A stretch of DNA of 55,469 bases from IMG/VR virus record IMGVR_UViG_3300036861_000067, positions 1 to 55,469 of that record. One strand, written 5' to 3'. This stretch comes from a virus. The notes under the pieces were generated by a model. It saw only the letters and a program-made list of their open reading frames with translations. It made no database searches and was not told the origin of the DNA. The position numbers and the translations under genes were made by a program. This document shows positions 18,675 through 31,048 of the stretch, piece by piece (the stretch's first letter is position 1; each line of letters starts with the position of its first letter).

Positions 18675-20602
18675 TTGGTGTATCTCCTACTAATCTTACC
18701 CTCAGCCATGATCGGCAAGCCTTCGCTCCAATCCTCGCCAGCCGCCATGGTGGCTAGAAAATCTTCTAACACTTCGTCTGGTTCTTCTTCGTCTACTTCG
18801 TCCACTATTTCATCATGAACATGGATGCGAACGCATTCACCACGCAACCGCCGCAACGCCCCGGCCAGCAGATCGTAGGCAATGGCCTGGGCCAAGTTCT
18901 CTGTTAGCAATCCGTACCACAGCCTGACGACCGGCCATTCCTGCACGCCAGCCTTTGGTGAACGGTTCCCGCGCCGATACTCAACACAATCGCCATAGTC
19001 GTCCTGCACTATCCGGGCGAACGGATAGCACATCAGCCGCCCGGACGGCAACCGGCACCATAGGTGTTCGCCGTCGAACAGGTAGTTAACCGGGCCAACC
19101 GGGAACATCGCCCCCGGCGAATACATCGCCAGCAGCACGGCGTCGCGTAGCGCCGGCCACAACCCTTGCGTAATCCGCGTGTACTTGCCCCGGTAGGCGG
19201 CCACCAGCGCCTTGCGCTCGTCGATGGGTACGTCAATGCCTTCCTTCTTCAAAGACCGCGCCAAGGCGCCTTCACCGCCCCCGAATCCAAGGCCAAGCAC
19301 GCAAGCCTTGAACACCTTGTATTCCTTCGGCGTTTCCGTCTTGCTGATCTTCCGGCAAGTCACGGCTTCACCAAAGCTTGAGTAAGGGCTGACGCCGGAG
19401 CGGAACAACTGCAGTAGCTCAGTCTCGCCGGCCAGCCATGCCGTAATGCGTGCTTCGATCTGCGCGTAGTCGCCAATTAGGAAAACCTTGCCGGGTGAAG
19501 CGATGAAAGTTGGGCGAACAAGTTTGGCCAAGATGGTGACTGGGTCATCCAGCATCTTCAGTGCGGCATGATTATCTTCAAGCATGAATGGTATGGCTTC
19601 GGGGAATGTCTCAGCCATGGTGTTGTGGACTTGCGCCCCTGTAGATGAATAGCGCCCAGTCTGTCCAGCACCACGAAACATGAACAGGCCGCGTAGGTAA
19701 TCGTCAATCGACTTGCGGTCTAGCATGGCCTGATACTTGGATACAGCCGCCTTGGCTTGGCCGGAACGGATTTCCAGAACCTGCTTGACGTTGTCTGGTA
19801 TGTCGGATTCGTCCAGCAAATCGATGATCGTACCCTTACTCAAATCCTCAACCGGTTTCCATTGGGTGGCCACCCAAGATTTGATCTTTTCAACCTGGGT
19901 ATGCGCCGTGACCCAGCCTTTGGTGAGGATGGTTAACGCACGGTCATTGTCGATGTGTTCTTTCTCAGCAAACCAGATAGCATGGGATGCCAGCTTGGTG
20001 TCAATCATTACACCACGGTCGTTGATTTCCTCACTGATGTGATAGTCGGTTAGTTCGCTGTCTGTGAATGGGATGAACGTGTGGAACAAGGCGCGTTCGA
20101 CTTTCACATCCTGCCGGCAGTATTCGGCCAGCCGTTCGTAATCGCGTGGGTCATCCCACCATACCGGTACATTGCCATATTCCATTGACCTGGGCTTGCA
20201 CAACTTTAGCATCAAGTAGTGCCCCTCCTTGTCCTTGAGCTGTGGGATGCCGGCAAAGCGGGCGGCCTTGTCCAAACCGCCAGGATAACCCCTGGCGCGG
20301 GATAAGGCGGCCACGCAATAGAATTGACTTAGAGGGATGGTGGGGAAGCCATGGCGCGGCATCACGTTGTTCCAAATCAGGCGCTCGAATTGTGCATTCC
20401 ATGCACCAAAATGTTCGCCTTGCTTCAGGTGATAGAGAAGTTCGCTTGGTGGGTCTTCACCGGGCAACCAGAGTTCCACATCTCCACCATCAAATGCATA
20501 AGCCAAGCAATTCACATCCGTGGTCGGGTGGGCCGCGTAGTTATAAATTCCACCTTTGAGTAAATCAAAGGTGGAACGGGTTTCAAAATCTGCATGTATC
20601 AT
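18671..20602 (-). CDS. DNA polymerase, family A
   Basis: A 643-residue replicative polymerase that begins directly with a 3'-5' exonuclease-like domain (MIHADFETRSTFDLL, Asp5/Glu7). It lacks a 5' nuclease domain, as in T7-type enzymes. Motif A is GDYAQIEARITAWLAGE with Asp at about 378. The O-helix region is FKACVLGLGFGGG, and motif C is HVHDEIVDEV with Asp at about 597. It overlaps genes on both sides by 4 bases in the leftward operon, next to a resolvase and a DUF2800 protein. Some phages of this gene set also carry a separate single-stranded DNA binding protein; none is certain here. Confidence 0.92.
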   Translation of the reverse strand: MIHADFETRSTFDLLKGGIYNYAAHPTTDVNCLAYAFDGGDVELWLPGEDPPSELLYHLKQGEHFGAWNAQFERLIWNNVMPRHGFPTIPLSQFYCVAALSRARGYPGGLDKAARFAGIPQLKDKEGHYLMLKLCKPRSMEYGNVPVWWDDPRDYERLAEYCRQDVKVERALFHTFIPFTDSELTDYHISEEINDRGVMIDTKLASHAIWFAEKEHIDNDRALTILTKGWVTAHTQVEKIKSWVATQWKPVEDLSKGTIIDLLDESDIPDNVKQVLEIRSGQAKAAVSKYQAMLDRKSIDDYLRGLFMFRGAGQTGRYSSTGAQVHNTMAETFPEAIPFMLEDNHAALKMLDDPVTILAKLVRPTFIASPGKVFLIGDYAQIEARITAWLAGETELLQLFRSGVSPYSSFGEAVTCRKISKTETPKEYKVFKACVLGLGFGGGEGALARSLKKEGIDVPIDERKALVAAYRGKYTRITQGLWPALRDAVLLAMYSPGAMFPVGPVNYLFDGEHLWCRLPSGRLMCYPFARIVQDDYGDCVEYRRGNRSPKAGVQEWPVVRLWYGLLTENLAQAIAYDLLAGALRRLRGECVRIHVHDEIVDEVDEEEPDEVLEDFLATMAAGEDWSEGLPIMAEGKISRRYTK

Positions 20603-21057
20603 TTTATTAGATTTTCAGTAGGAGTCGGAAGGGTTACGTCACGTTGCAAGGTATTGTGATCGAATATTACGGCGGCTGCATAACGCTGTAGAAGTTCCTG
20701 TTTCCTTTTTAAAAGTGGGTCATCTGTAACGACCACAACAGTTTTCTTTACTGAACGCAGAATCTTACGTGTACCACATTGCGCACCTTTTTCACCAGCT
20801 TCAATCCTTTCACCATTACTAAGAACCTTCAACCCAAGGCCATGTAATGACCCTAATTCAATGTTAAAATGTTGGAGCAATTTACGACGCCAAGCATTGG
20901 TGACTACCTTGTAGCGAGCAGACCTGATAGGATGGCCAAGCACTTTTTCAATTGATTCATGTAAGATAATATTTCCCACATCAAAAGGTTCAAAAGTCTT
21001 AATCAATTTCTCAACTTCTGGTGCAGTTGGAATACCGCCAAAAAACATTTTACTCAT
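20599..21057 (-). CDS. Conserved phage protein of unknown function
   Basis: A 152-residue protein. The ATG at 21057 is preceded by AAGGAGATTTGAA. Residues 1-70 look helical, with FDVGNIILHESIEKVLGHPI then RYKVVTNAWRRKLL. The C-terminal half has KKTVVVVTDDPLLKRKQELL. The arrangement resembles a phage DNA-metabolism protein but no family is certain. The gene lies downstream of two hairpin plus pentamer-repeat modules in its leader, and its end overlaps the polymerase start. Confidence 0.55.
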   Translation of the reverse strand: MSKMFFGGIPTAPEVEKLIKTFEPFDVGNIILHESIEKVLGHPIRSARYKVVTNAWRRKLLQHFNIELGSLHGLGLKVLSNGERIEAGEKGAQCGTRKILRSVKKTVVVVTDDPLLKRKQELLQRYAAAVIFDHNTLQRDVTLPTPTENLIK

Positions 21058-21070
21058 TTCAAATCTCCTT

Positions 21071-21130
21071 GTGCATAAAGCACCCATGCCTCGCCAAACC
21101 TAGCCGCGCCTCGCCAAGCCACGCCACGCT
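21071..21130 (-). repeat. Hairpin plus pentamer-repeat module A
   Basis: On the plus strand GTGC-ATAAA-GCAC (21071-21083) is followed by about nine 5-bp units of NNGCC type up to 21130. Read in the direction of transcription (minus), the array comes first, then the 4-bp-stem hairpin, then the AAGGAG ribosome site of the 20599-21057 gene. One of four such modules. Confidence 0.8.
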
Positions 21131-21140
21131 TTAATATCTT

Positions 21141-21205
21141 GTGCATAAAGCACCCATGCCTAGCCCAACCTAGCCTCGCCTTGCCATGCCACGCCGAACC
21201 GCGCT
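21141..21205 (-). repeat. Hairpin plus pentamer-repeat module B
   Basis: Second copy in the same spacer: GTGC-ATAAA-GCAC at 21141-21153, identical to module A, then about ten NNGCC-like pentamers reaching the stop of the upstream gene at 21205. Tandem to module A and separated from it by TTTAATATCTT. Confidence 0.8.
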
Positions 21206-21864
21206 TAAATCCTTTTAATTACCACAGTAAATCTGCCAAATGGCCCTGGAGTTTTACCGCCAGGACGCCAATCACCTAAACCTTTATACTGCCCGGCAAA
21301 AGTGAGAATGTCTTTCAAAACTTCATCAGTGATCTGTTCATCCATTATTGAAAGCGTGCCATAAAGTGACCAGCTATCAAAACGTGGGCGCACCCGGACA
21401 TGCTTACTTGTGCCGATCTTTGCCCGCTTAATGAAAAGACTGAAGCCAAGAGCTTCTACAGCTTTGCGATGCGCTTTAAAATCTTCTACATCTTTCAAAG
21501 CGTGAATGTGCTGGATAGGAATAGCTTGCCCGTTAACTGATAATTCCCAATCAGCTTCAGGAGCGATGCCGCTTTGAGTTTGTGACTTAAAAGTTTTACC
21601 AGATTTGCCACCTGGAACTGGCACCATCGCGCCACCTTCCATAATGCAGCGCATGACATTATCGCTTGGCATAGTGACGAATTTACCATCATGGTAAACT
21701 GAACCAATCCAACGAAATGCGGGTGAACGATCATCTCCGGCTTTACTTCCTTTTTTATTATGCGGGTCATTTTTCCAATCATCCATGGAATCCGACCAAT
21801 CAATATTGTCCCAATGCATAAGTAATGGGGTCTGACCAGTAACGAAAACTTCATATCTACGCAT
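21205..21864 (-). CDS. Conserved phage protein, possibly RAMP/Cas7-like fold
   Basis: A 219-residue protein; the start at 21864 has AAAGGTG 6 bases upstream. It opens MRRYEVFVTGQTPLLMHWDN. It has FVTMPSDNVMRCIMEGGAM in the middle and ends with GLGDWRPGGKTPGPFGRFTV. The small-residue-rich segment near the start, the P-S-x-x-x-x-R-x-x-x-x-G-x helix and a glycine-rich C-terminal loop recall RAMP-type RNA-binding folds. This is a weak resemblance. No CRISPR array or other Cas gene is present. It is flanked on both sides by pentamer-repeat spacers. Confidence 0.55.
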   Translation of the reverse strand: MRRYEVFVTGQTPLLMHWDNIDWSDSMDDWKNDPHNKKGSKAGDDRSPAFRWIGSVYHDGKFVTMPSDNVMRCIMEGGAMVPVPGGKSGKTFKSQTQSGIAPEADWELSVNGQAIPIQHIHALKDVEDFKAHRKAVEALGFSLFIKRAKIGTSKHVRVRPRFDSWSLYGTLSIMDEQITDEVLKDILTFAGQYKGLGDWRPGGKTPGPFGRFTVVIKRI

Positions 21865-21884
21865 GAAAATCACCTTTAAAATTT

Positions 21885-21978
21885 GTGCAAACGCACCCTT
21901 GCCTCACCTGGCCCCGCCTTGCCCAGCCAGGCCGCGCCACGCCTTGCCCGGCCGTGCCATGCCAAGCCGCGCCGCGAC
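21885..21978 (-). repeat. Hairpin plus pentamer-repeat module C
   Basis: GTGC-AAAC-GCAC at 21885-21896, then about sixteen NNGCC-type pentamers to 21978. On the transcribed (minus) strand it lies in the leader of the 21205-21864 gene, with the hairpin nearest the ATG. Confidence 0.8.
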
Positions 21979-21987
21979 TAATTTAAT

Positions 21988-22071
21988 GTGCTTACGCACC
22001 CTTGCCCTGCCTCACCCCGCCGCACCTCGCCCGGCCCGGCCCGGCCTGGCCCGGCCTAGTCTAGCCTTACC
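21988..22071 (-). repeat. Hairpin plus pentamer-repeat module D
   Basis: GTGC-TTAC-GCAC at 21988-21999, then about fourteen pentamers, several exact CGGCC copies, ending at the stop of the 22072-22407 gene. The hairpin stem is identical to the other three modules while the loop differs. Confidence 0.8.
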
Positions 22072-22407
22072 TTATCTCTCAATCTCCCGTAATTCAATCC
22101 GGGTTCCACGTTCTTCCACAGCCACCAGTTCCAAGCATTTCTTCTCAATGTAAGCCGCTGATGTCTCCCCTGGTGTAATCGGCGGCTGAAGAACAAAAGC
22201 CAAGATCCCACGAACATGTTCTTCCGGTACTGTCGGGTGCGCCCGCTTCAAAGCTTCGATGATCTTCGGCAGATTCATCATGTAGATAAGGCCGGTAGCT
22301 TCACGCGTCACCTGGGCATATTCCTTACACGTTACTTCCTTTGTGACGGGCGCAGTTGCGCCCATCGCTGGCCCTGCAAGCAGGGCCAGCAACAGAATGC
22401 TTTTCAT
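22072..22407 (-). CDS. Secreted protein of unknown function
   Basis: A 111-residue protein with a clear signal peptide (MKSILLLALLAGPAMGA, cleavage after about residue 17). The mature part has two cysteines (TCKEYAQ and KKCLEL) likely to form one disulfide, and a helical middle (LPKIIEALKRAHPTVP). Small periplasmic proteins in phage genomes can serve in superinfection exclusion or envelope modification, but nothing specific is visible. It starts 3 bases after the stop of the upstream gene. Confidence 0.6.
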   Translation of the reverse strand: MKSILLLALLAGPAMGATAPVTKEVTCKEYAQVTREATGLIYMMNLPKIIEALKRAHPTVPEEHVRGILAFVLQPPITPGETSAAYIEKKCLELVAVEERGTRIELREIER

Positions 22408-22410
22408 GAT

Positions 22411-23070
22411 TTACACCAGGGGAGGTCTATCCAAGATCGGAACATCGCTTACCGGCTTTCCGTTTTCATCCAGCCAAGCGACAATATTAAGGATGGGATT
22501 GTAGATGGTCCCATACTCTTTATTTTTATGCTGGTAGCTGTCCGACGACAATTCGATTACAGGGTAGAAGCGTTTGGGATTTTCCTGATAGCCATATGCG
22601 ATCTTGCCGGCCAGATCCAGAATGGCGCGGCGGCCACCAAGAGAGTTGGTTCTGTAGACGACTTGCATGCCGTCGAAGGAAGCAAGGTTGACGCTGACTT
22701 GATCTTCCCAGCCGCGCCCGGATGGTGCTTTACCGCCAGGAGGAATGCCGCCAGAGTTGACCGGGCCGAGTTTGTCAGGATCTACCGGCCCCATGCTCAA
22801 CGGCTGCATGACTTCACCTTCAATGCCGCCCTGCCACCAAGCGACATAGCCGGTCTGCACTGATACCGGGTTGACAATGAATTGCTGGCCTTCATGCACG
22901 GCTTCGCTTTCCTGGCCGAGAACCCATTGCCCTACCTTGGTGAGTCTAAGCAAAGCTTGGCCACCCATAAGCCCGGCTTTGGCCGCGCCGAGAGATGCCA
23001 GATCCTGTTGGAGTTTATCGCGGGAAGGAAGTTGGACATTACCGAAGAATTTTGCGACATCGTTAGCCAT
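22411..23070 (-). CDS. Conserved phage protein of unknown function
   Basis: A 219-residue protein; the ATG at 23070 is preceded by AAAGGCG. It has a conserved-looking core (VVYRTNSLGGRRAILDLAGK, then FYPVIELSSDSYQHKNKEYG and PILNIVAWLDENG). This beta-rich pattern with aromatic residues suggests a nucleic-acid binding or structural role and could even be the missing single-stranded DNA binding protein. That is speculation. A terminator lies just upstream, so it may have its own promoter or depend on readthrough. Confidence 0.55.
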   Translation of the reverse strand: MANDVAKFFGNVQLPSRDKLQQDLASLGAAKAGLMGGQALLRLTKVGQWVLGQESEAVHEGQQFIVNPVSVQTGYVAWWQGGIEGEVMQPLSMGPVDPDKLGPVNSGGIPPGGKAPSGRGWEDQVSVNLASFDGMQVVYRTNSLGGRRAILDLAGKIAYGYQENPKRFYPVIELSSDSYQHKNKEYGTIYNPILNIVAWLDENGKPVSDVPILDRPPLV

Positions 23071-23095
23071 TTGAGTTTCGCCTTTAGAGTATTTG

Positions 23096-23122
23096 AAAAA
23101 AAGCCGGTTACTTTTCACCGGC
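23096..23122 (-). terminator. Rho-independent terminator on the minus strand
   Basis: GCCGGT/ACCGGC stem (23103-23108 with 23117-23122), an 8-base loop, and seven T residues on the minus strand side. It lies between the candidate noncoding RNA and the 22411-23070 gene. Confidence 0.75.
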
Positions 23123-23470
23123 AAGCCATCTGGTTCCTACGTCATGTCTACCAGCAACCCAGCTCAGGTGAGCAAGCAGGCTACAGCCAGCGCCCATCAA
23201 CGCCGGATACTGTACTTGGCCGCCCTCGCAAAGCGGAACCTCCTTGCTCTTAATCTGCCGGCCCTTCCCCGGCTTGGGATTGCTATTGATGAGGGGTAAG
23301 ACCCCATCGCAAATCCGTGTAATTCATGACCCGGTTTTTATTAAGCGAAACCGGTTCCTGTAAAACGCTCTTGGGTGTGTCGATAACCATCTCTGACAAA
23401 AGTTAATAAAGCACACCCAAACGCCCCCGACAAACTCGCTTCGGCCATTTGGGGTTCTTAAGTTGCTTGG
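23096..23470 (-). ncRNA. Candidate structured noncoding RNA ended by a terminator
   Basis: This 400-base stretch has no convincing gene but several perfect stems. TTGGGTGTG (23371-23379) pairs with 23412-23420. CCGGTTT (23331-23337) pairs with 23348-23354. GGGG/CCCC lies at 23293-23305, GCCGG/CCGGC at 23257-23273 and CCGC/GCGG at 23220-23236. The terminator at 23096-23122 then closes the region. The T-run places the RNA on the minus strand, in line with the operon. It could be an abundant small RNA, an attenuator or a riboswitch-like leader. I recognise no known class. Two short open frames inside (35 codons on minus, 51 codons on plus) lack good ribosome sites. Confidence 0.55.
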
Positions 23471-28273: not shown

Positions 28274-28478
28274 GATCTTTCCTATGCAGATATTTGTTGG
28301 CTTCAGTGATTGCCTGAAACCTCAACTGATATGCTATATCCCTGGGTAGTATCTGCAACAAGTCCGGCACCTTCACCTCATCACTCATGATTATCAGGGT
28401 CACTATTTCATGACCTTCAAAATAAAAATCAATTTTTAAATTAGTCCCTGGGTAAGGAATTCTAGCATATCCGTTCAT
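28257..28478 (-). CDS. Hypothetical protein
   Basis: A 73-residue protein starting MNGYARIPYPGTNLKIDFYF, mixed beta then helical (DLLQILPRDIAYQLRFQAI). The start overlaps the upstream stop as ATGA and GGTGAA lies upstream. Not recognised. Confidence 0.5.
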   Translation of the reverse strand: MNGYARIPYPGTNLKIDFYFEGHEIVTLIIMSDEVKVPDLLQILPRDIAYQLRFQAITEANKYLHRKDHAEET

Positions 28479-28684
28479 AATGGTTCACCAAGTGCTGGAT
28501 AAATCTCCCTTGCTATTTCAGTTGGTATTTTTTCGAGGGCTTCGGAAAGTAAAAGGCTTGGCTGCTCTTGCGCATAGTGACGGATTGCGTCAGCGAGCAT
28601 TTTGTTAGTTTCCAGGGATTTGGCCAGGAGGTCCGAATGGATACGGTATCCACAAGCCCCGCAAACGATTTGATAGTGTGACAT
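28475..28684 (-). CDS. Small protein with a zinc-knuckle-like start
   Basis: A 69-residue protein from ATG 28684; a TTG start at 28717 is possible. The start MSHYQIVCGACGYRIHSDLL has a CxxC pair but no second pair, so metal binding would need two chains or other ligands. The rest is helical and acidic. Position is within a chain of coupled accessory genes. Confidence 0.45.
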   Translation of the reverse strand: MSHYQIVCGACGYRIHSDLLAKSLETNKMLADAIRHYAQEQPSLLLSEALEKIPTEIAREIYPALGEPL

Positions 28685-28697
28685 CTGATTCACCCAT

Positions 28698-28892
28698 TTA
28701 ATAATTTCCCTCTGCAAGCCAACCGTTTGCGATCATAACCGCAATCAAATCAGCTTTATCAAAATCCCCATCAAGGGTGATATATTCATGCTCTCCGTAG
28801 TGACTTATATCGCTGATATAGGCACCGAAGCTGCTGGTTCGATAATCGCCATGACCACTCTGAATATGTATAACGGCTTCGTCTTTAGTCAT
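28698..28892 (-). CDS. Hypothetical protein
   Basis: A 64-residue acidic protein beginning MTKDEAVIHIQSGHGDYRTS, with SDISHYGEHEYITLDGDF and a closing helix. The ATG at 28892 overlaps the stop of the exported nuclease gene. Many small phage early proteins look like this; no function is assigned. Confidence 0.5.
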   Translation of the reverse strand: MTKDEAVIHIQSGHGDYRTSSFGAYISDISHYGEHEYITLDGDFDKADLIAVMIANGWLAEGNY

Positions 28893-29281
28893 TTGATCTT
28901 CCCAATGTCGGGCGCCGGGCAGGCCCAGCCTTTGCCCTTGCGTTTGAATGCGCAGATCCACCGCTCAAGCCTGTCCTTTTGCTTGCCGGCGACTACCGTT
29001 TGCCACTGCATGTTAGCGGGGCTGTCAGCGCCACCGGCACACAAGGGCACTATATGATCCACGACATGGTCAGGACACGCGCCACGGGCCTTTCCCGTGG
29101 CCGGGCAGGGGTGTATAGACCGGAAGGCCCGCACTTGCGCTGGATCCCTGACAGTTTCGGCGTTTACAAACTGTGAGATTGACGACCCTATTATCATTCC
29201 CCACAAAAGCCAACAGCCACGATTAACCCATGTCATGTACACCAATCCACGATCTTCTTCACTCTCGCCTTTGTACTTCAT
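28889..29281 (-). CDS. Membrane-anchored or exported HNH nuclease
   Basis: A 130-residue protein from ATG 29281 (GGTGGTAAGG upstream). A hydrophobic segment at about residues 22-38 acts as a signal or anchor. The rest is an HNH domain: FRSIHPCPATGKARGACPDH, then VVDHIVPLCAGG and NMQWQTVVAGKQKDR. This compact His-Pro-Cys plus DHIVPL layout recurs in phage-encoded exported nucleases. It could degrade DNA in the periplasm, for example incoming rival phage DNA. It sits within the accessory operon. Confidence 0.75.
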   Translation of the reverse strand: MKYKGESEEDRGLVYMTWVNRGCWLLWGMIIGSSISQFVNAETVRDPAQVRAFRSIHPCPATGKARGACPDHVVDHIVPLCAGGADSPANMQWQTVVAGKQKDRLERWICAFKRKGKGWACPAPDIGKIK

Positions 29282-30156: not shown

Positions 30157-30326
30157 TTCTCTAACTCCTTAAAATTGTCCTGCTGTTCGTGTTCCAATTG
30201 TTCTTGCGCCGTTGCGGCATCGCTCATCAGGCGACCAAAAGCATGTGCGCCCATACCGTAATGTTTGGCTTGTTCTTCAATTATTCTATCAAGCCAGCAA
30301 TGGTAATCGTCTGGTGTGGTTTTCAT
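30153..30326 (-). CDS. Short hypothetical protein (57 aa)
   Basis: Begins MKTTPDDYHCWLDRIIEEQA and is helical and acidic to the end. AAGGAG lies 8 bases before the ATG. Overlaps of 4 bases with both neighbours mark it as part of the operon. Confidence 0.55.
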   Translation of the reverse strand: MKTTPDDYHCWLDRIIEEQAKHYGMGAHAFGRLMSDAATAQEQLEHEQQDNFKELEK

Positions 30327-31048
30327 GATTGAATCTCCTTAAATGCGTTTTCTACCATCGAATTGAAGTTTTGCTTTTGTTTGGCTCTCGCAGCAGCCCA
30401 CGCAGCAGCCTCCGCAGCAGCCTCCGCAGCAGCCCACGCAGCAGCCTCCGCAGCAGCCCACGCAGCAGCCCTCGCAGCAGCCCTCGCAGCAGCCCTCGCA
30501 GCAGCCCACGCAGCAGCCAACGCAGCAGCCCACGCAGCAGCCCTCGCAGCAGCCCTCGCAGCAGCCTCCGCAGCAGCCTCCGCAGCAGCCCACGCAGCAG
30601 CCCTCGCAGCAGCCCTCGCAGCAGCCCTCGCAGCAGCCCCCGCAGCAGCCCCCGCAGCAGCCCTCGCAGCAGCCCCCGCAGCAGCTCTTAGCCCCGCATC
30701 GCCGGTTTTCAAATACTCAATAACGATTTCTGGTGCATCCCATAGGTGGACTACATCCAAAGCGCATTGCCGCGCAAAGTCGCGTAAAAGATTTTCAGCA
30801 TTTAACGTAGCCAAGATTTTGCGCCGACTCGCAACACATTTATCCTCATCTTCAAGAATTTTTCCATCCAACTCCACCAAGTGCAGCAAATTTCCTGGCG
30901 CGTAAGTAAAAGCATCGAACGGTTCCACACTGGCATGCAAACCCGACTCGCAAAAAACAATATCCCTTTCATATTCAAGCCATTCGCCAATGGGTGGGAT
31001 TTTCCGGCCATCCCGTAGTTTTTCACTCGTGAAATGATAAGCAATCAT
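30323..31048 (-). CDS. DUF7666-like protein with Ala-rich tetrapeptide repeats
   Basis: A 241-residue protein. Residues 1-115 (MIAYHFTSEKLRDGRKIPPI, VFCESGLHASVEPFDAFTYA) form a globular domain seen in many environmental phages. Residues about 120-220 are uninterrupted AAAX repeats, where X is Arg, Trp, Glu, Gly or Leu. The tail ends MVENAFKEIQS. The repeats should form a long amphipathic helix. Function is unknown; binding to a partner protein or DNA has been guessed only from composition. It is coupled to genes on both sides. Confidence 0.7.
   Translation of the reverse strand: MIAYHFTSEKLRDGRKIPPIGEWLEYERDIVFCESGLHASVEPFDAFTYAPGNLLHLVELDGKILEDEDKCVASRRKILATLNAENLLRDFARQCALDVVHLWDAPEIVIEYLKTGDAGLRAAAGAAARAAAGAAAGAAARAAARAAARAAAWAAAEAAAEAAARAAARAAAWAAALAAAWAAARAAARAAARAAAWAAAEAAAWAAAEAAAEAAAWAAARAKQKQNFNSMVENAFKEIQS
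30391..30678. repeat. 24 tandem 12-bp coding repeats
   Basis: Twenty-four units of CAGCAGCCnnCG type (plus strand) encode AAAX in the DUF7666-like gene. Nearly all variation falls in one codon of each unit: TGG, AGG, GAG, GGG or TTG on the coding strand. The array is prone to slippage and its copy number may vary. Confidence 0.9.

Follow-up and report, generated by a model that had tools for sequence, protein, structure and literature searches.

The locus between positions 20599 and 22074 raises the question of what is formed by four short modules, each a hairpin beside a run of degenerate pentamers, that surround a small gene of the window (the whole 55,469-nt stretch of viral DNA analyzed here). 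The original prediction offered a processing site, translation control, a linker or a mobile repeat; none of these is the best fit, and guide RNAs fit the modules better. We conclude that the locus (20599-22074, minus strand) is very probably a VIPR system of an uncultivated tailed phage, with the modules as its guide RNAs.

VIPR (Viral Interference Programmable Repeat) is described in PMC13142463 (bioRxiv 2026.04.26.720920), besides which our literature search found no further papers on VIPR. As reported there, it combines small (~20 kDa), phage-encoded, RAMP-like Vipr proteins with vrRNAs, which are ~100-nt, Vipr-bound RNAs made up of 9-16 YNNGG units with a structured tail at the 3' end. 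Vipr coats the RNA, the NN dinucleotides read DNA with a 1-nt skip between them, and the complex reads double-stranded DNA, its binding silencing transcription. Seven VIPR types have been published (PMC13142463).

Organization of the locus

The four modules lie on the minus strand around the gene at 21205-21864, between the end of the gene at 22072-22407 and the gene at 20599-21057. On that strand each module reads as (GGYNN)n followed by GG and a hairpin, GTGC-N4/5-GCAC, which starts 2 nt past the last GGYNN unit. The features, under the names that they would carry in a VIPR system, are as follows:

22000-22074, minus strand: vrRNA1 guide array, 15 YNNGG units (sequence parsing); NN order 5'-3' AA AA TA TA CG CA CG CG CG GA GC GG GA AG (AA)
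21988-21999, minus strand: vrRNA1 tail hairpin GTGC-GTAA-GCAC (sequence, MFE fold)
21897-21976, minus strand: vrRNA2 guide array, 16 YNNGG units (sequence parsing); NN order GC GC TT AT AC CG AA GT GC CT TG AA GG CA GA (AA)
21885-21896, minus strand: vrRNA2 tail hairpin GTGC-GTTT-GCAC, followed by a ribosome site and the vipr ATG (sequence, MFE fold)
21205-21864, minus strand: vipr gene, 219-aa RAMP homologue of phrog_4652 (homology, model)
21154-21203, minus strand: vrRNA3 guide array, 10 YNNGG units (sequence parsing); NN order GC TC GT AT AA GA TA TG TA (AT)
21141-21153, minus strand: vrRNA3 tail hairpin GTGC-TTTAT-GCAC (sequence, MFE fold)
21084-21128, minus strand: vrRNA4 guide array, 9 YNNGG units (sequence parsing); NN order GT GT TT GA GC TA TT GA (AT)
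21071-21083, minus strand: vrRNA4 tail hairpin GTGC-TTTAT-GCAC, abutting AAGGAG and the vap ATG (sequence, MFE fold)
20599-21057, minus strand: vap gene of 152 aa, distantly homologous to the gene in the vap1 position of SUSP1 (profile, model)

The stop codon of the gene upstream overlaps the first unit of vrRNA1, whose array contains one imperfect unit (GACTA). The vipr gene starts with the ATG at 21864, with an alternative GTG at 21873. Sequence parsing confirmed that all four predicted modules are real: in none of 100 first-order Markov simulations of the window did the longest GGYNN run, with one miss allowed, exceed 5 units, compared with 8 to 15 units here. A tandem-repeat scan of the window placed degenerate pentamers in the VIPR locus only.

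The window also encodes terminase and head-tail adaptor genes, and the gene upstream of the locus (22411-23124) has a match in a family of phage nucleotidyltransferases (phrog_9528, E 1.6e-19). Elsewhere, a 12-bp repeat occurs 25 times (30387-30685) within the minus-strand gene at 30323-31048, the product of which is an alanine-rich AAAR/AAAW/AAAE tetrapeptide repeat. A DNA similarity search in phages gave no match for the window, and Rfam gave none for the window and 11 related loci.

The Vipr and Vap proteins

The protein encoded at 21205-21864 falls into phrog_4652 (E 1.7e-19). It matched chain 36pp_D of PDB 36pp, annotated as 'SUSP1 Vipr protein', with E 2.8e-44 by a profile built without SUSP1 sequences and with E 3.8e-10 by single sequence, and tblastn matched it to a hypothetical-protein gene of SUSP1 (record position 28474-29061, E 6e-9). 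The AlphaFold model of the protein has a pLDDT of 94.8, and Foldseek returned 23 matches to it at E<=0.001, all chains of type III/VII CRISPR effector complexes, the leading ones all being Cas7/Csm3-type RAMP subunits. These results establish the homology and the fold of Vipr. Furthermore, the protein carries a conserved C-terminal motif, GxGDxRPxxxGxxGxF, which fits the glycine-rich loop of RAMP proteins. Pfam, NCBIfam and PADLOC gave nothing for Vipr or Vap, and a host search by Vipr gave no match in a set of 369 genomes and one weak match in a set of 289.

A 41-row Vipr tree places the window on a long branch (support 90/100) together with L249-L254, L005, L007, L008, L026 and L097. In this tree, for which the bootstrap is not settled, the window clade stands apart from SUSP1 with LESphi2 and from Trine with LittleE. 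The Vipr of the window is thus in a clade distinct from SUSP1.

The relation of Vap to known genes is established at the profile level: a profile built from ten window-clade members, without SUSP1, found the gene after the SUSP1 vipr (E 4e-7) and the gene after vipr in LittleE (E 9e-7). Vap homologues adjoin vipr in many array loci. The Vap model (pLDDT 91.4) has a predicted winged-helix-like look with long helices, and Foldseek gave weak winged-helix matches to it (best E 0.04). The products of type II vap genes are predicted DNA-binding proteins (PMC13142463).

Arrays in other genomes and their linkage to vipr

A viral-contig search by the pentamer pattern alone, with the hairpin not required, retrieved at least 120 stretches, and degenerate arrays were found in 113 stretches among the matches listed. 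On the opposite strand, the related viral arrays have near-uniform NN, G or A at the third position and C at the last two. With GGY fixed and NN near-uniform they are not simple, mutable tandem repeats. The same pentamer pattern in bacterial genomes gave mostly plain tandem repeats.

The arrays are linked to vipr. Members of phrog_4652 were present in 42 of the 48 contigs picked by the array pattern (5 of them by array plus hairpin) and in none of the 14 control genomes; the tally is 44/50 once two protein-picked contigs are added. Among the matches listed, vipr lay inside the fetched stretch at 87 of the 113 array loci, with a median of 49 bp between array and gene, and at these listed loci 284 of the 287 arrays within 3 kb of vipr were on the same strand as the gene. 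In ten bacterial genomes, all five with clearly degenerate arrays have a Vipr protein, and the other five are without one. The SUSP1 locus has an array grammar identical in kind beside its vipr homologue.

Three variants of array architecture were seen in addition. First, five loci (L048, L015, L012, L028 and L046) have very dense arrays, in which a 4-nt TGCC or a brief constant word divides the pentamer blocks and hairpins are lacking between them; these are possibly the 'staggered' overlapping vrRNAs of PMC13142463. Second, L010, L014 and L044 have long conserved non-pentamer spacers between arrays, unlike the hairpin tail and with no Rfam match. Third, tRNA T-arm-like GGTTCGANTCC elements lie between or after GGYNN arrays in Gordonia phage Trine (L257, 3565-3735) and Mycobacterium phage LittleE (L258, 2745-2925), closed by acceptor-like stems such as GCTCC...GGAGC and TCCGGG...CCCGGA, and ARAGORN reported an irregular tRNA that lacks a normal anticodon at 3771-3839 of L257. 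vrRNA tails may thereby mimic tRNA ends for processing; the portion of the PMC13142463 main text that was available names hammerhead-interspersed arrays and not tRNA-like spacers.

The tail hairpin

Each of the four window RNAs retains the hairpin in its MFE fold. Across the window clade, a hairpin of at least 4 bp occurs at a fixed offset after the array and GG in 30 of 42 arrays, compared with 1.6% at random positions. Six stem sequences were found (GTGC, GCTG, GCGC, GGTC, GCTA and GCCC), and stem pairs 2, 3 and 4, three of the four pairs, show changes on both sides. The covariation check suggested in the original prediction thus yielded compensatory changes in this clade; the identity of the stems, claimed there too, holds within the window, but relatives vary in compensated fashion. 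Its view that the period of 5 is non-coding and under selection on DNA or RNA is borne out for the RNA level, with arrays and compensated hairpins recurring in relatives rather than being absent from them. Over all Vipr-bearing loci, a simple hairpin was counted at 83 of 383 3' ends, 49 at the 5' end and 57 in shuffled sequence; the simple hairpin is therefore a trait of the window clade and not of VIPR tails in general.

The last NN before the tail in the window clade is AA, AT or GA in 30 of 33 cases, and the inner units differ; therefore, this dinucleotide can be read as part of the handle. Tentatively, and with somewhat more doubt than confidence, we suggest that the window clade (the same members as in the tree) could be a VIPR subtype of its own, its handle being a minimal hairpin (GG and a 4-5 bp stem with a loop of 3-5, the last NN being AA, AT or GA), in which only the preceding NN would specify the target.

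Target searches and alternative explanations

Targets with a 1-nt skip were not found in viral contigs by searches that were exact-match or small. Guide cores matched viral contigs 0 times for 10 units of vrRNA2, 6 times for 8 units of vrRNA2, 20 times for 8 units of vrRNA3 and 60 times for 9 units of vrRNA1; these matches were rejected as targets, with flanking units matching at about chance level and the vrRNA3 matches falling in mixed reading frames. In 399 Pseudomonadota genomes, with up to three mismatches, one match to vrRNA1 was found, and reversed control patterns matched too. No self-targeting was seen within the window. Skip rules of 0-3 nt, applied with 479 guides to the small database of collected array loci, showed no difference and no 1-nt-skip excess, and near-matches, including that of an L009 guide to the window, were within chance. 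Because these searches relied on exact matching or on small sets, and the host search by Vipr gave at most one weak match, the missing targets are weak counter-evidence, limiting the VIPR reading without contradicting it.

The alternative that survives best, though we consider it improbable, is that the modules are vrRNAs by descent whose guides have decayed and no longer match a living target. The absence of targets in viral contigs and in the 399 Pseudomonadota genomes agrees with decay, as does the imperfect unit of vrRNA1, but apart from that unit the GGY frame is kept throughout the 50 units, the tails are intact, the vipr frame is open and the fold of its product is predicted with confidence.

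Considerably less likely still is a cis-acting leader, in which array and hairpin would bind a repeat-binding protein and control vipr and vap translation in cis with no guide role, on the model of TRAP, which binds spaced triplets. Modules 2 and 4 do lie directly before ribosome sites, and the module 4 hairpin abuts the AAGGAG before vap; in each pair it is the gene-proximal module that shows the predicted order of array, hairpin and ribosome site, the distal module being followed by the next array. A leader leaves the hypervariable NN, the tandem module pairs and the array-vipr linkage across viral contigs unexplained, and three of the four SUSP1 vrRNAs are downstream of the protein genes (PMC13142463). 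Autoregulation in cis could, for its part, coexist with a guide role. Functionless simple tandem repeats made by slippage, as a mobile or recombination-prone linker, have a negligible chance of being right: the same pattern also retrieves many bacterial contigs that have ordinary tandem repeats and no Vipr, but here tail, strand and neighbour gene are all fixed, the array-vipr linkage and tail covariation count against slippage, and slippage would copy NN too, yet NN is about uniform while GGY is held.

Comparison with known systems

The VIPR reading rests on a RAMP-fold Vipr homologue, arrays of 9-16 YNNGG units with fixed GGY and hypervariable NN, a structured conserved 3' tail, intergenic vrRNAs beside vipr in a phage, and an accompanying vap gene. 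The closest comparison is the type II VIPR of Escherichia phage SUSP1 (PMC13142463, PDB 36pp), which likewise has four YNNGG vrRNAs, each ending in a structured 3' tail, placed around a small vipr and vap operon in a phage genome, with a homologous Vipr and, at low identity, a related Vap. The window differs from SUSP1 as follows: First, its Vipr is ~27% identical, lies on another branch of the tree and has 219 aa instead of about 195. Second, its tail consists of a minimal hairpin of 4 bp in place of the pseudoknot described for the SUSP1 clade (PMC13142463). Third, two vrRNAs precede vipr and two lie between vipr and vap, in contrast to one before and three after in SUSP1. Compared with type II, then, Vap is related to the gene at the SUSP1 vap1 position and the Vipr branch is separate.

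VIPR also occurs in Pseudomonas prophages of the P. fulva clade (PMC13142463). As a related gene, compared alongside this published clade and with putative membership in it, we considered P. aeruginosa phage LESphi2 (L256), which like the window has vipr followed by a vap homologue and an upstream GGYNN array ending in GGG and a hairpin; its Vipr, however, branches with SUSP1 and its tail is different. The predicted Vipr fold, with a glycine-rich loop near the C terminus, resembles the Csm3/Cas7 RAMP subunits of class 1 CRISPR-Cas, and repeated subunits would coat a guide RNA in both. Unlike CRISPR-Cas, the locus has no repeat-spacer array among the repeats found, the guide information is non-contiguous and the single RAMP is small. 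A CRISPR-Cas array of identical repeats and unique spacers was therefore rejected, the tandem-repeat scan having given only degenerate pentamers at this locus.

Proposed mechanism and significance

From PMC13142463 we infer RNA expression, RNP assembly, the 1-nt-skip code and silencing for the window. Four short RNAs would be made, each a GGY/NN pentamer run capped by a 3' hairpin handle, and copies of Vipr, probably about one per pentamer, would coat each RNA, gripping its GGY triplets while leaving the NN dinucleotides exposed. This exposed series would pair with double-stranded DNA bearing the same dinucleotides with one base skipped (NNxNNx...), so that the predicted same-sense target strings are NNx repeats of the NN lists given above. 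Bound complexes would block transcription of the targets, presumably genes that belong to a rival phage, satellite or prophage, and the 152-aa Vap may act as a DNA-binding helper. Since a long branch separates the window Vipr clade from SUSP1, its code could differ in detail.

VIPR, a class of RNA-guided DNA recognition described only very recently, has been proposed to be older than CRISPR. The locus would add a compact phage-borne example, whose Vipr falls outside the branches studied by experiment and whose tail is simpler. Since the array grammar alone recovers VIPR from unannotated viral contigs, it can be used as an annotation-free detector. The targets of the guides, once found, would reveal competitors of this phage.
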